Source of the DNA: Brevibacillus laterosporus LMG 15441
GTDB taxonomy: Bacteria; Bacillota; Bacilli; Brevibacillales; Brevibacillaceae
DNA length: 64,000 nucleotides
NCBI RefSeq assembly: GCF_000219535.2
Contig: NZ_CP007806.1
Coordinates: 3,444,501-3,508,500 of the forward strand
Direction: 5' to 3'
Under the pieces are notes generated by a model. That model was given only the letters and a program-made list of their open reading frames with translations. It did not search any database and had not been told where the DNA came from. Positions 12,383 through 22,158 of this stretch are shown here, in pieces (position 1 is the first letter of the stretch; every line of letters begins with the position of its first letter). Made by a program: the position numbers and the translations under genes.

Positions 12383-13072
12383 TTTATCACTCGTTTCCTA
12401 CTCATACTAAATCCGATCAAATTTGATTCCTATCTCTATGTATGCCTGCCTTGGTTGCTATCCTATTATACTAACAAAAGAAAGCTGACAACAGCAACGA
12501 ATTTTGATTAGCAATAAGTTTAAAATCATGGTTATTCACGATGTTGCCTCTTTTCCCCTAATCAGCTTCATTATCCATAAAAAGAAGAACATCCCACCGC
12601 CTCGTAAGCATACGTTCGAGATGTTCCTCTATACTCATGCCAATGGATGATCAAATTATCTCTACATCACTCGTTTGATTAGTTGTGTTTCTATTAGTTA
12701 ATTTGACCGCATTAACCGCTTTCTAATGCGATTCTTAACGAATATAGTTAACGTACATTTAGCTGATTTGCTTAAGTGCGTTGTCAATTTGGTTGTCAAT
12801 GTTGTCAGTTCTCTATCTTCTCTATCCTTGAGCTCATACTACCAGTCTGTGTCACTCATCATACCAACGATCAAAGATTCGCTTTTAATGTGTTGTATTT
12901 CTGTATACAACTTTGAATTCACCTTACCCACTTTCTGTTGCTCTGTGAATGTTTGAGAATAGGTCTTGTTACGAATGTAGGTATTCATCCAATTATATAT
13001 GGACAATTGTCTAGAATGTAGACAGCTAAATATACTAACAGGAAAATCAGATTAAGTTAAGGAGTGGTTGTT
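12383..13072. other. Intergenic junction zone between host operon and accessory DNA
   Basis: About 690 bp without an intact gene. It holds the promoter side of the methyltransferase-miaA-hfq operon near 12.4 kb and a decayed minus-strand ORF at about 12.8-12.96 kb. The upstream region of the Cys-rich gene lies at its right end. No tRNA gene and no clear attachment repeat can be seen. Confidence 0.5.
12805..12955 (-). pseudogene. Decayed paralogue of the small ORF at 13601-13759
   Basis: On the minus strand the frame reads GKVNSKLYTEIQHIKSESLI then VGMMSDTDW, then a TAG. The intact paralogue at 13601 has GNWNTFQPWEIAKLKNLSLI then ASMTNDIDWQHEL. The TAG replaces CAG, a 4-bp deletion follows, and the ends share CAAGGATAGAGAAGATAGAG exactly. 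So this is an old duplicate that has lost its frame and its start. Confidence 0.65.
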
Positions 13073-17263: not shown

Positions 17264-17385
17264 ATTTTGTGCTTATAATGATTAAAGGCCCATTTCATCT
17301 ATAAAATAGCACATTTAGGAACATGTCTTCTGTACATAATTTATATTTAGCTGTTTGAACCTCGATCGTCGAAGAAGAGAGTTGG

Positions 17386-17414
17386 TTGCAAAAAAACAAG
17401 AAAAAAGGTAAAAT
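17386..17414 (+). promoter_or_regulatory. Probable sigma-A promoter of the unknown/XRE-ImmA pair
   Basis: TTGCAA and TAAAAT are separated by exactly 17 bp, about 47 bp before the first start codon at 17461. Confidence 0.55.
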
Positions 17415-17460
17415 GGTTGCAAAGATGTTTGTCAAGAAAAATAAGAAATGAGGTTAATAA

Positions 17461-18117
17461 ATGCAAATTATTCTTCTAAAGAATCCTATGGATGTACTTC
17501 AAGAAGAAATCCCCCGAGCAATCCGTTCAAAGTTTATACCTATAATAAATCGTGGTTACAATCTTGCGAATAATGTTATAAAAGAGATTCCCTTCTTGGA
17601 TTGGGATTTAGGGTATCAACACACTGGATATTTAAAAAATATAGCTGTTCAGTATGCCTTTAAAAAAGAAACGGAGAATGGTAATTTACCTTTTGAAAGT
17701 AGCTTGGTGTTCAATTCAAACCGAAGCTCTAAACATTTAGAAATGAAAACTGGGAACTCTATTATTACAGTGAGTCAAGTTCAAAATCATAATGTAATTG
17801 CTAGACATGCATTCTTCAGAAAGAAACTGCAATTATCTAACCAACTTCGCTTTAATTTTGATACTATTAATGATAATTTTGTAACTGAACAACCATATTA
17901 CATATTAATAACTCATGGATATGGACAAGAGGCACCGAATTTTATCAATGTAGGTATCCCAGATGGGCACTCTTGGATGACAAAGATCAATTTGCTAGCT
18001 GAACCTCATCTAGTAACAGCAAGAGATGACAACAAAGTAAAGGAAGAGGAAATTATGCCAGAGCAATTAGTTGGATTTAAAAAGTTTGTTAAAGAGGTGG
18101 TGGGAAGTGAAAAATAA
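17461..18117 (+). CDS. Unknown protein coupled to an XRE-ImmA/IrrE gene
   Basis: A 218-residue soluble protein, MQIILLKNPMDVLQEEIPRA at the start, with a beta-rich middle (HLEMKTGNSIITVSQVQNHN) and WMTKINLLAEPHLVTARDD near the end. There is no signal peptide or membrane segment, and I recognise no family. Its end overlaps the start of the XRE-ImmA gene by 11 bp, so both are made together. The pairing of an unknown protein with an HTH-protease suggests a toxin-antitoxin-like or phage-control unit, with this as the possible effector. That is inference. AT-rich, with its own promoter and terminator: a typical cargo cassette. Confidence 0.7.
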   Translation: MQIILLKNPMDVLQEEIPRAIRSKFIPIINRGYNLANNVIKEIPFLDWDLGYQHTGYLKNIAVQYAFKKETENGNLPFESSLVFNSNRSSKHLEMKTGNSIITVSQVQNHNVIARHAFFRKKLQLSNQLRFNFDTINDNFVTEQPYYILITHGYGQEAPNFINVGIPDGHSWMTKINLLAEPHLVTARDDNKVKEEEIMPEQLVGFKKFVKEVVGSEK

Positions 18118-19270
18118 CAAGTCTCACTTCTCAACTTTCAACCCTCAAAAACTAACTGACGCGAGAGAAGCTAGAGGTCTTACACTGAAAGAGCTCTCTG
18201 AATTAGTTGGGGTCTCCCATCAAGCCATCTCTAAATTCGAAAAAGGGGCAACCACTCCTAGTTCTCAAACTCTAGAACGCATTTCTGATACTCTTACAAT
18301 GCCTATTCATTATTTTTTTAGTAATAGTAAAGAGGCAACAGAAGATAGTGTAGTCTTCTTTAGAAGTAGAGCTGCGGCTACAGTTAAATCAAAAAAGATT
18401 CATTCTAAAAGAATTAACTGGGTTAAAATAATTCATAAATACCTAGATGATATATTAGAATTTCCAGAATTAGATATCCCTAAATACAATGTATCTGACG
18501 TTTATGAACCTATTGCATTTGAAGAGATAGACGAGATAGCTAATACAGTTAGAAAAAAATGGGGTTTAGGTGATGGTCCCATCAGTAACATTTTGTTATT
18601 GCTTGAAAAGAAGGGAGCTATAATTTCAAGAGCTACCTTTGCTGATTATAAAATTGATGCATGCTCTAGATGGGAAAACGATGAGAGGCCCTATATATTT
18701 TTAGGCAATGATAAAACTGCCCCACGTTCGCGATTTGACGTTGCTCATGAATTAGGTCATTTAATTTTGCATCCAAACTTGAAATTAAGTGAGTTTAACA
18801 ACAAAGTAAATTACAAATTAATTGAAAAAGAAGCTGATCGTTTCGCTTCTGCATTTCTTTTACCAGCTTCAAGTTTTGGTAATGAAGTGATGTCTAGTTC
18901 ACTTGATCATTTTGTCAGTTTAAAAAAACGTTGGAAAATTTCAATCCAAGCCATGGCATACCGAGCATATCAACTAAACATATTAAATGAATATCAATTT
19001 ATTTATCTTAGAAAAAAATTAGCATCTAACAATCAGCTAAAAAATGAACCTCTTGATGATGTAATTCCTTTCGAAGAACCTTCTGCCTTAAAACAAGCCA
19101 TTGAGCTTATACTTCAACATGGTATTAAGACAAAAGAAGAGTTAGTTTATGAAATTGGATTGTTTCGTAATGATATTGAGATCTTAGCTAACTTAGAGCC
19201 TGGATACCTACTGGATACAGCCAAACATTTAAATGTTATTTCCTTTAAATTGAAGAAAGATAAGCTCTAA
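18107..19270 (+). CDS. XRE HTH fused to ImmA/IrrE-type metallopeptidase
   Basis: About 387 residues. The N-terminal XRE helix-turn-helix covers about 10-65 (LTLKELSELVGVSHQAISKF). The ImmA/IrrE (COG2856) peptidase domain contains the zinc motif VAHELGHLIL near residue 215, with the downstream glutamate in EKEADRFASAFLLP. ImmA-type proteases cleave repressors, as in ICEBs1 induction; fused HTH-peptidase forms are often regulators of toxin-antitoxin-like or phage-defence loci. The GTG at 18107 is preceded by AGAGGTGG and overlaps the upstream stop; a TTG at 18071 is a longer option. A strong terminator follows. Confidence 0.85.
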   Translation: MKNNKSHFSTFNPQKLTDAREARGLTLKELSELVGVSHQAISKFEKGATTPSSQTLERISDTLTMPIHYFFSNSKEATEDSVVFFRSRAAATVKSKKIHSKRINWVKIIHKYLDDILEFPELDIPKYNVSDVYEPIAFEEIDEIANTVRKKWGLGDGPISNILLLLEKKGAIISRATFADYKIDACSRWENDERPYIFLGNDKTAPRSRFDVAHELGHLILHPNLKLSEFNNKVNYKLIEKEADRFASAFLLPASSFGNEVMSSSLDHFVSLKKRWKISIQAMAYRAYQLNILNEYQFIYLRKKLASNNQLKNEPLDDVIPFEEPSALKQAIELILQHGIKTKEELVYEIGLFRNDIEILANLEPGYLLDTAKHLNVISFKLKKDKL

Positions 19271-19306
19271 ACTAAGCCTCCTGTTTATTTACAGGAGGCT
19301 TAGTTT
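19270..19306 (+). terminator. Terminator of the XRE-ImmA operon
   Basis: A 15-bp perfect stem, AACTAAGCCTCCTGT / ACAGGAGGCTTAGTT, with a TTATTT loop and trailing TT. It could work in both directions. Confidence 0.9.
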
Positions 19307-19377
19307 TATTTATTTTGTACAACTTGTCCACTAGCAACCCTCAACTCATCAGCCAATTGCCCAATGTTTATACTCTC
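19306..19377 (-). pseudogene. Fragment of an endolysin C-terminus
   Basis: The minus strand reads VRLLNESINIGQLADELRVA then SGQVVQNK and a stop. The intact endolysin at 21535 ends VRIGQLSDELRVASGQARKN. The DNA is also similar (CAACTCTCAACTCATC versus CAACCCTCAACTCATC). Nothing else of the gene is left. The fragment lies directly against the terminator of the XRE-ImmA cassette, which suggests that the cassette replaced or split an older lysis gene. Confidence 0.7.
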
Positions 19378-19490
19378 ATTTAATAACCTAACATTTCAAA
19401 TTTACACATTAGTAAGATTAAGAACCATTAAACAATACCCATTTTATGGTACAATAAGCAATATTAACGCAAGGGGGGGTTATGATCTAA

Positions 19491-19913
19491 ATGCGATCAT
19501 ACTTATCTGGAGCAGGATTATCTCTGTTCTTTGCTAATTTAATTTTCTTTATATTTTCTTTAAGTCATACAATTGATTTTTCTGATTTAAGAAAATCAGG
19601 TTTTGATGCTGTTATTTTATTTATTTCATTATTTAATTATATTTGTTGCATCTTTGGCTGGTTGTTACTTACTATTTTACGAAAAAGTAGAATTAAAAGC
19701 TGGCTCATTTGTACATTTTTCTTCATTGTATTAGGTAGTATTTTCGGAGCTGTACTCTATACGCTTTATCCTAAGGCATTCATTTTACCTTTCATTACTA
19801 TATTCGGTTCAATTATGTTTTTCGTAGCGCAATTTCAAAACACTAAATTAATTTCGACTTTATTAAGTTTTAGTGGTCCGATTTTCACAATCTTATTGCT
19901 TATCATTGTATAG
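19491..19913 (+). CDS. Four-span membrane protein, unknown
   Basis: 140 residues with four hydrophobic stretches (LFFANLIFFIFSLS, AVILFISLFNYICCIFGWLL, SWLICTFFFIVLGSIFGAVL, and PFITIFGSIMFF with a final LLLIIV helix). Loops are short and basic (RKSRIKSW). No family is recognised. ATG 19491 follows AAGGGGGGG; an upstream ATG in the same leader meets a stop at once. Plus strand and AT-rich, unlike the structural genes, so it is probably lysogen-expressed cargo. Confidence 0.65.
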   Translation: MRSYLSGAGLSLFFANLIFFIFSLSHTIDFSDLRKSGFDAVILFISLFNYICCIFGWLLLTILRKSRIKSWLICTFFFIVLGSIFGAVLYTLYPKAFILPFITIFGSIMFFVAQFQNTKLISTLLSFSGPIFTILLLIIV

Positions 19914-19920
19914 AGATAAG

Positions 19921-19962
19921 AATCAAAAGGCTCCCTTTCTATTGAAAAGGAGCCTTTTGATT
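19921..19962. terminator. Bidirectional terminator between converging genes
   Basis: AATCAAAAGGCTCC / GGAGCCTTTTGATT is a 14-bp perfect stem, with T- or A-rich flanks on both sides. It serves the membrane gene on the left and the DUF3238 gene on the right. Confidence 0.9.
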
Positions 19963-19990
19963 CTTTATGTTTTTAGATAACTCTCTTTTT

Positions 19991-20551
19991 TTACTTGCCA
20001 ATGCGAACTGCAAATGGACGACGACTTACACCCTTATCCATTGGAGGAAAGAGAGCCCTAGCTGTTTCATTTTTATGACCATACGTATAAATAACGTTTT
20101 TATTTCTTCCCAATGAACTTGAAGTATTGATATATACTTCATAATTTGGGAACCCGTCATGCAATCCTTCAATAAATCCAGTACCATCTGATTTAAAAGT
20201 TACTTTAAACTCGTAATCAATCGCCGGAGCTCCTTTAACCAAAGGATTTTTACTTGAGCAAACAACTTTAAATTTTACTTGATTTGAACCACTCCATTGT
20301 ACATCAAGTAATTTAAGGTCACTCGTAGGTGCAGTTCCTGTTTCTCCTGTTGTCAAATTATGAGTTTCGCCAATATAAGGCTTATCTTCAATAGTCTTAT
20401 TATCAAAATTAATTACAATTTTTTGTTTGGTACGATAACTTCCATAAAAATCAAAACCTCGATTATCACCTTTATACCAGTGACCCCAGACAGGTTCTTC
20501 TATTTTAGCTTCTGGAATAAATGTTTTAAAAGTAATTATAAAATTTCCCAA
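19991..20551 (-). CDS. DUF3238-like protein
   Basis: 186 residues with the pattern of DUF3238 proteins: VWGHWYKGDNRGFDFYGSYR near the N-terminus and a beta-rich rest ending in YGHKNETARALFP and RRPFAVRIGK. There is no signal peptide. The function of the family is unknown to me. The TTG start at 20551 follows GAGGTG. It sits directly downstream of the SigO/RsoA-like pair but has a 112-bp leader of its own with a promoter-like GGGAAAC-N17-CGTTC, so it may be the target gene of that sigma factor. Confidence 0.65.
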   Translation of the reverse strand: MGNFIITFKTFIPEAKIEEPVWGHWYKGDNRGFDFYGSYRTKQKIVINFDNKTIEDKPYIGETHNLTTGETGTAPTSDLKLLDVQWSGSNQVKFKVVCSSKNPLVKGAPAIDYEFKVTFKSDGTGFIEGLHDGFPNYEVYINTSSSLGRNKNVIYTYGHKNETARALFPPMDKGVSRRPFAVRIGK

Positions 20552-20575
20552 AAAAACACCTCAATTCTTATATTT

Positions 20576-20604
20576 GAACGGAAGGGTAAGATCAAGTGTT
20601 TCCC
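20576..20604 (-). promoter_or_regulatory. Candidate alternative-sigma promoter of the DUF3238 gene
   Basis: On the minus strand GGGAAAC and CGTTC are 17 bp apart, resembling the general layout of alternative-sigma promoters more than sigma-A. GAAGGG and CCCTTC in the same stretch could also form a stem. The assignment is tentative. Confidence 0.3.
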
Positions 20605-20663
20605 TTCAAAACATTCGATCTTTTACGTTTCATATAAGGTAAGGTATAAAAAAACAAAAATAG

Positions 20664-20903
20664 TCAACCTAATCTTTTTTTATTAGAATTAATATATTCA
20701 AATAAATCAGGAATGCTTTTCATATCATATCTGTATACTGCTTCTATTATATTTTTTGCGATTTCTTGTCTTAAATCTTCTTTTAAATGATTAGGTGCTT
20801 TTGCAATCTCTTTCCGAATTTTCGGCTCAAATTTTTCACAAATTTTAATCATTGCATCTGTATCATGTTGCTTTGCTTTTTTAATCAATTCAATTAAAGT
20901 CAT
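20664..20903 (-). CDS. RsoA-like sigma co-factor (sigma region 2-like, 79 residues)
   Basis: A 79-residue protein with a sigma region-2-like helical pattern: LIELIKKAKQHDTDAMIKIC then LKEDLRQEIAKNIIEAVYRY. In B. subtilis RsoA (YvrHa) is also 79 residues and supplies the region 2 part that SigO lacks. Here too the gene sits immediately behind a sigma gene that has only a recognisable region 4. ATG 20903 follows AAAGGTAGATGTC, and only 5 bp separate it from the upstream stop. Assignment as RsoA-like rests on size, pattern and order. Confidence 0.65.
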   Translation of the reverse strand: MTLIELIKKAKQHDTDAMIKICEKFEPKIRKEIAKAPNHLKEDLRQEIAKNIIEAVYRYDMKSIPDLFEYINSNKKRLG

Positions 20904-20908
20904 GACAT

Positions 20909-21436
20909 CTACCTTTCCACAAGTAACTTTTTCAACTTATTTAGTGCCCTAATCTTCGTCTTTGACACTGATTGCTTAGTTGTATTTGTCTTCTTTGAAA
21001 TAAAAATAACATCGTACCCATCAATAACTAAATACTTTAATATCAATTTTTCTTTATCAGTTAATGTGGTTAACGCTATGTACAAACTTTCGTTTCCAAT
21101 TACCTCTAAAAGGTCATTGTTTTCTGTAAAATAATCATCCTCATTAGAAATTGTTTCTTTTGCATCATTCTCAAAAATTATGGGGACTAGTTTTTCTTCT
21201 GCCTCACGATTTTTCTTAGAATAATTGATGGAAGAAAACTCTATTAAAGAAGCAAAATATTTTACCAACCTTATTTCACCAAAATATTCTATGAAACTTT
21301 CATTTAGTTTTTCACTTGCTCCAGTGTCTAAAGGGTTTGAAATCACTTTGTCATAAAGACTCTTATTCTCTTCTCTGCTCAAGAAGTTAGCGATTATTTT
21401 ATTTTTCGCAGATTTTTTGTTAATTGTATCCATCAT
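20909..21436 (-). CDS. SigO/UviA-like sigma factor, region 4 type
   Basis: 175 residues. The C-terminal 55 residues form a clear sigma region 4: LYIALTTLTDKEKLILKYLV, then FISKKTNTTKQSVSKTKIRA and LNKLKKLL. The N-terminal part is helical but lacks a standard region 2, as in SigO (YvrI) of B. subtilis; UviA/TcdR-type factors of clostridia are the other relatives to consider. It has its own SOS-type box and leader just behind the lysis operon terminator. So it is probably a damage-induced sigma factor of the prophage that acts together with the small protein encoded next. Confidence 0.7.
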   Translation of the reverse strand: MMDTINKKSAKNKIIANFLSREENKSLYDKVISNPLDTGASEKLNESFIEYFGEIRLVKYFASLIEFSSINYSKKNREAEEKLVPIIFENDAKETISNEDDYFTENNDLLEVIGNESLYIALTTLTDKEKLILKYLVIDGYDVIFISKKTNTTKQSVSKTKIRALNKLKKLLVER

Positions 21437-21464
21437 TATTTGACCACCAATCTACATTTGATAC

Positions 21465-21478
21465 GAATGTACGTTCTG
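21465..21478. promoter_or_regulatory. LexA/SOS-type box upstream of the sigma pair
   Basis: CGAATGTACGTTCT, identical to the box upstream of the YolD-like gene. It lies 29 bp before the sigma start codon, so it would overlap the promoter or the transcription start. Confidence 0.65.
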
Positions 21479-21498
21479 TTTTATAGCAAAAAATAAAT

Positions 21499-21520
21499 TG
21501 TGCCAGTACGTAACTGGCAC
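21499..21520 (-). terminator. Terminator of the lysis operon
   Basis: TGCCAGT / ACTGGCA stem, on the minus strand followed by CAATTTATTTTTT. It separates the endolysin from the sigma gene. Confidence 0.8.
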
Positions 21521-21534
21521 ACTCTAACCCGTTC

Positions 21535-22158
21535 TTATTCATTCTTTCTTGCTTGCCCACTTGCAACTCTCAACTCATCCGACAATTGCCCGATCCTCAC
21601 AGCCTTATCCTTCATTCCCATCTGATTGTAAAAAGCCCATTGTCCCTGTAAATGGCTAATAATTTCGTTCGCTACCTCTGGTTTCACTGTTGTTTCCTCC
21701 TTATCATATTTCGCTAGACCGTACTTTTCGATCAACCCAATTAGCTTACCTGGATAACCAGGATCAGTGGCATATCCGCCCTTGTGGATCGCGTGGCAAG
21801 CAGTCTTATAATCAGCACCTAGCACGCCATGATAGCGCGACGGCTTGTCTCTTGTACCGTTTAAGATTAGTTTGGAATGGTCTGCAATAGACTCTCCCCA
21901 ATCGTTGTAAGCTCTGAAATTAGCCGTGATAGTTGTCCATTGACCGTTGTAATTCTCCTTTGTAGGCATAGCGCAAACACCTGCTGGGCCTGTTCCTTTG
22001 ATACCAAAGAGGTTGTTTCCTCGTTTAGTTAGTCCACTTTCTCCCCAAGCTGATTCAAGGATAGCCTGAGCGATCGTAAGAGATGCAGGTATCTTGGTTT
22101 TCTTCATGTCCGCTACAGCGCTAGGTGCAATCTTACCTATAAAGTCTTGTGGTTTCAT
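21535..22158 (-). CDS. Phage endolysin, glucosaminidase (FlgJ/GH73 type)
   Basis: Cleaves the glycan chain of peptidoglycan to free phage particles. The 207 residues begin with the GH73-type domain (about 1-150): SLTIAQAILESAWGESGLT with the catalytic Glu, GNNLFGIKGTG, and FRAYNDWGESIADHS. The tail (about 150-207) is a short helical stretch, YNQMGMKDKAVRIGQLSDEL, instead of a known wall-binding domain. It overlaps the upstream holin gene by 4 bp. Confidence 0.9.
   Translation of the reverse strand: MKPQDFIGKIAPSAVADMKKTKIPASLTIAQAILESAWGESGLTKRGNNLFGIKGTGPAGVCAMPTKENYNGQWTTITANFRAYNDWGESIADHSKLILNGTRDKPSRYHGVLGADYKTACHAIHKGGYATDPGYPGKLIGLIEKYGLAKYDKEETTVKPEVANEIISHLQGQWAFYNQMGMKDKAVRIGQLSDELRVASGQARKNE

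Follow-up and report, generated by a model that had tools for sequence, protein, structure and literature searches.

The window analyzed here, a single stretch of 64,000 nucleotides, contains a compact cassette of two plus-strand genes oriented opposite to the prophage genes. The first, rmrT (17461–18117, + strand), encodes a 218-aa protein from an ATG start, with GAGG at 17450. The second, rmrA (18107–19270, + strand), encodes 387 aa from a GTG start with a ribosome site, AAAGAGGTGG, at 18091–18100; a TTG at 18071 is a less likely alternative start. By these open reading frame coordinates the two genes overlap by 11 bp. A promoter-like site lies upstream (TTGCAA at 17386–17391, 17 bp, TAAAAT at 17409–17414, + strand), and the operon ends in a strong intrinsic terminator (19269–19306, + strand) with a 16-bp stem of −26.8 kcal/mol (z = −8.1), a stability equaled by 0 of 200 shuffled sequences. 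The cassette is also AT-rich, at 33.4% GC vs. 40.5% in the window. A preliminary description of this DNA had proposed the 11-bp overlap, the AT-rich composition, the orientation against the prophage, a dedicated promoter, and a 15-bp terminator, all of which are recovered here, with the stem found at 16 bp.

Comparison to defense-system models identified both genes. RmrT matches the PADLOC model PDLC03933 (E = 1.1e-62, residues 9–217) and RmrA matches PDLC03947 (E = 1.9e-150), so that, judged by sequence, 17461–19270 is a complete RosmerTA toxin-antitoxin pair, i.e., a known kind of system and not a new one as a system. According to PMC12795458 and PMC10440598, RosmerTA was described in 2022 by Millman et al.; it is an anti-phage toxin-antitoxin family (PMC10440598, PMC12322248). 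The initial view of the first gene as a new toxin from no known family must therefore be abandoned. This view likely arose because RmrT has no match in Pfam at E = 1 (PF19448, DUF5986, included), in NCBIfam, or, by sequence search with either a single sequence or a profile, in the PDB. The accompanying proposal, in which an HTH-protease partner controls a toxin or anti-phage effector, does fit the published role of the family, and only the novelty of that family is lost. RmrA carries both of the elements anticipated for the second gene, an Xre-type HTH (PF01381, about residues 18–69) and an M78/ImmA peptidase domain (PF06114, about residues 188–287) with HELGH at 214–218 and E240. Its zinc site is intact, with H214, E215, H218, H222, and E240 invariant across 16 homologues. 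The spr1629 antitoxin model NF052239 was matched by all 118 RmrA homologues scanned, none of them above its cut-off of 335 bits; the window RmrA reached 251.6 bits over its full length, and was accordingly rejected as an equivalog of the curated spr1629 (RipB) family.

The two genes are consistently paired. Since scans of genomes and viral contigs with the single RmrT sequence returned no match, relatives were instead collected by scanning bacterial genomes and viral contigs with an RmrA profile, which yielded 160 loci. Protein search recovered 8 complete relatives of RmrT, all 8 with RmrA directly adjoining, and 173 of 188 RmrA frames have a frame of 130–340 aa directly upstream, as the co-occurrence suggested beforehand would require. 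Plasmid records (276) and phage records (25) also carry RmrA relatives, and the nearest relatives of the window toxin, from the same family of bacteria, share about 42% identity with it. Several individual loci deviate from this arrangement. One rmrT copy is split by a TAG stop next to an intact RmrA (L008/L020, G334:C6), representing a natural toxin-dead copy, and an RmrA-like protein in a Bacillota genome (L029:1414–2574) has no toxin-sized ORF directly upstream. Paenibacillus phage Dash encodes an RmrA 60% identical to that of the window (L013:2983–4050), with a shortened protein end and preceded by an S8 peptidase gene instead of RmrT, and Callan matches equally. The lone RmrA of phage Dash could be a remnant or a counter-defense gene.

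Promoter-type matches were found 14 times in the region compared to 9.6 times in shuffled sequences, hence the TTGCAA-17-TAAAAT match carries little weight by itself. What lends it credibility is a conserved repeat with a 31-bp spacing that wraps the promoter. This putative RmrA operator is a direct repeat of TGGTTGCAAA at 17383–17392 and 17414–17423 (+ strand, 31 bp start to start), the first copy of which covers the −35 element while the second sits directly 3′ of the −10 element. Of 98 non-redundant regions upstream of rmrT, 20 contain a 9-mer pair spaced by 31 with 8 or more matches, vs. 1.6 in shuffles, and the same test at other spacings gave 0–8. Distant rmrT genes from Enterococcus, Zymomonas, and Escherichia phage loci also have the form GGTTGCAA/GGTTGACA upstream, and GGTTGCAA-N(19–24)-GGTTGCAA (six spacings) has a single occurrence in the genome, at the rmrTA promoter. 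No inverted-repeat operator was detected in the rmrTA promoter of the window. The 31-bp direct repeat is probably the RmrA operator, at which RmrA would bind and repress.

To characterize conservation within the toxin, about 170 relatives were reduced at 45% identity to 99 non-redundant sequences. The best-conserved stretch across these, N-Q-x-x-Phi-F, is by its pattern a binding motif for the sliding clamp (DnaN), and corresponds in the window to NQLRFNF at rmrT codons 127–133 (17839–17859, + strand). The established consensus for clamp binding is QL[S/D]LF, or more generally QxxLF, with QLSLPL quoted as a tight binder (PMC12309361). Column N127 is 91% conserved and Q128 is a glutamine in 65 of 93 relatives (70%), both ranking among the best-conserved columns, and many relatives display mid-protein motifs such as QLSLF, QLTLF, QLALF, QLDMF, QISLF, QINLF, and QMQLF. 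The exact patterns were chosen once about ten members of the family had been inspected. Q..[LM][FW] was found anywhere in the protein for 28 of 99 toxins (shuffle mean 5.4, maximum 14), and the strict form for 11 of 99 (0.27 in shuffles). Positions were similarly restricted, with 31 of 35 matches located at 0.48–0.64 of toxin length. Within this central region, a QxxLF-type motif was identified in 26/99 toxins vs. 2/210 flanking ORFs (Fisher 2e-12), and the broad pattern in 59/99 toxins vs. 24 when shuffled, about 40% of toxins lacking even the broad pattern. Counting against the clamp reading, the loose Q..[LM][FW] pattern was also central in 14/99 sequences of RmrA itself, the strict form in 0/99.

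A loose HMM iteration placed 155 of 173 toxins in one homologous family, a grouping we did not retain since the DUF5986 clade stays almost wholly apart at a stricter threshold. The motif test was for this reason also run per clade: the strict HMM family of the window alone (67 sequences) includes 15 motifs vs. 1.2, and the DUF5986 clade alone (24 sequences) 10 vs. 0.5. The window motif itself, QLRFNF, is non-canonical: position 4 is F instead of L and is followed by N and F. It appears to be a divergent form resembling the hexapeptide type Q-L-x-L-x-L/F, and is the weakest link of the clamp argument for this RmrT. Close relatives read QLSIF (L129), QMSIF (L130), or QLTMF (L126) at the same place, further close relatives read QYYINF or QLMFDI, and the relative L003 has NNLRWNLF, without the motif glutamine.

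A precedent for this target comes from Streptococcus pneumoniae, in which RipA (Spr1630), the partner of Spr1629, was reported in December 2025 as a Rosmer toxin acting through DnaN (PMC12795458). Suppressors of RipA toxicity in dnaN map to the protein-docking pocket and abolish the RipA-DnaN interaction; the same article makes no mention of a motif in RipA (PMC12795458). The pocket is kept in the host DnaN (L196:739–1878), where H182, F184, Y250, F335, and L372 correspond to S. pneumoniae H183, L185, Y249, Y333, and L371. Site numbering was established via PDB 2awa, the S. pneumoniae sliding clamp, with an offset of 12, after which all five stated residues fit. We consider that the window pair is a RosmerTA system whose toxin blocks the sliding clamp, with a probability of about 0.65, the binding of DnaN by this RmrT being predicted from its motif. 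RmrA would bind two half-sites 31 bp apart, i.e., three helix turns, flanking the promoter and so repress the operon, and would neutralize RmrT, as published for the family. Upon loss or inactivation of RmrA, presumably caused by an infecting phage, RmrT would be freed, and its exposed Q-x-x-Phi-x-Phi loop (Q128–F133) would enter the hydrophobic pocket in which DnaN docks its partner proteins. This would exclude PolC and the other clients of the clamp, replication would stop, and the cell would arrest before phage release. Both the trigger and the defense outcome are what we infer for this particular system.

Synteny with two sibling genomes (96% and 90% identity) ends at window position 12680–12890, which is likely the left boundary of the prophage. 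The cassette is located beyond the endolysin gene, at the lysis end, in a variable slot that is nearly empty in sibling prophages or else occupied by an IS element, a methylase, or other genes; rmrTA is cargo in this slot. This placement, the frequency of relatives in viral contigs and on plasmids, and the annotation of RmrA-like proteins of C. difficile phages as cI-like repressors would all fit a prophage addiction or lysogeny-control module with no natural anti-phage role. We consider this alternative unlikely, although well short of negligible, as tests elsewhere have found Rosmer systems to restrict particular phages (PMC10440598, PMC12322248). It concerns the benefit of the system and is compatible with the clamp mechanism, so that both can be true together.

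The promoter and 31-bp repeat (window 17382–17448) are also found without rmrTA in several sibling-prophage slots, both in the same genome (L197, L198, L199) and in sibling genomes (L200, L201, L202), with further copies at L203–L208. In L201, a CCCTCC...GGAGGG terminator and the endolysin 3′ end come next, at a distance of about 35 bp or less. In L198 (1645–3182, same genome), what lies downstream is not rmrTA but a gene for a 453-aa protein whose N-terminus is Xre-like. The stand-alone copies could have been left as scars when cassettes were exchanged, could act as decoy operators, or could form a small transcription unit. Past the cassette, an 86% direct repeat (window 19322–19365 vs. 21551–21594) indicates a duplication of the 3′ end of the endolysin region, due to which 19306–21534 looks like a second cargo module, with genes for a membrane protein, a DUF3238 protein, and sigma-factor-like genes.

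An AlphaFold model of RmrT built with 65 natural sequences (pLDDT 89.6, pTM 0.88) predicted a compact helix/sheet domain. Helix 118–128 ends at Q128, and the model is least confident over the stretch that holds the remainder of the motif (block means of 85 and then 59), which a short linear motif would lead one to expect; for either toxin clade, the modeled motif lies in a loop of low confidence. The representative of DUF5986 (L177) is modeled with the same order of elements and the motif RQMNLFD in the equivalent loop. The best structural neighbors of RmrT are all PD-(D/E)XK restriction endonucleases, led by NaeI (Z 6.8) and followed by SwaI (5.9), SfiI and EcoRV (both 5.2), although values below 8 are not decisive and may reflect a common arrangement only. 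EcoRV is also among the neighbors of L177, and the window RmrT happens to carry E94-M-K96. RmrT could on these grounds be an active PD-(D/E)XK-like nuclease, which the Q-motif would only bring to replication forks. We regard this as improbable, since no D...(D/E)xK catalytic set is conserved in residues 78–108 across 99 relatives: E94 is acidic in only 27% of them, a value that no other acidic column there surpasses, and conservation is lacking at K96. A Foldseek search with the RmrT model likewise returned no match at E = 0.001. Based on these models, a binding rather than a cutting protein fits RmrT better. Rosmer toxins are diverse, and RmrT-D5 of Gordonia phage Kita depolarizes membranes (PMC10440598), yet another target such as the membrane is the least probable alternative here, because transmembrane regions are predicted for the Kita toxin but RmrT of the window is modeled as a compact helix/sheet domain, and the conserved feature of its family is the Q-motif and not a hydrophobic helix.

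Blockage of the sliding clamp thus remains our preferred reading for the window pair, and a broader hypothesis, to which we would give even odds, extends it across the family. Most RosmerTA toxins would form one superfamily whose nuclease fold has become devoid of catalysis and whose killing relies on a short clamp-binding peptide presented to DnaN, RmrA would recognize an operator with 31-bp spacing, and prophages of the same genus would carry stand-alone copies of this operator. RosmerTA has been counted in many genomes, with a target assigned for a minority of its toxins. What is new here is a residue-level, family-wide prediction of toxin action, along with a conserved operator. The presence of the motif in two toxin clades turns the RipA case study into a general prediction testable by simple mutants, and the 31-bp repeat offers a direct handle on the silencing of RosmerTA. 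If the prediction is true, DnaN would join the host hubs used for abortive phage defense, and RosmerTA would stand as a widespread form of immunity acting by closure of the sliding clamp of replication.

Among known systems, RosmerTA (NetFlax node D25, PMC10440598) has the same operon, toxin first and then an Xre-HTH/M78-peptidase antitoxin. The window pair is a diverged member, its toxin sharing about 42% identity with the nearest relatives, and neither the clamp motif nor the 31-bp repeat is mentioned in the RosmerTA literature cited here. DUF5986 (PF19448) proteins are also named RmrT by PADLOC (PDLC03930), adjoin RmrA, and share with the window RmrT the order of structural elements and the loop that holds the motif, but they form a separate clade, the window RmrT having no PF19448 match. 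RipAB (Spr1630/Spr1629) is likewise a Rosmer system, in which RipB combines an N-terminal Xre HTH with a C-terminal ImmA-like domain and protects in a ClpX-dependent manner (PMC12795458). Its likeness to the window pair is drawn from this published description and from the spr1629 antitoxin model, for which RmrA stays below the cut-off (251.6 vs. 335 bits). SocAB of Caulobacter crescentus has another type of antitoxin than RosmerTA; the window pair is not a member, and SocB is reported to have no sequence or structural homology to RipA (PMC12795458). The clamp-binding motif of SocB nevertheless occupies the DnaN pocket (PMC9690074), and RmrT would act alike if our prediction holds.
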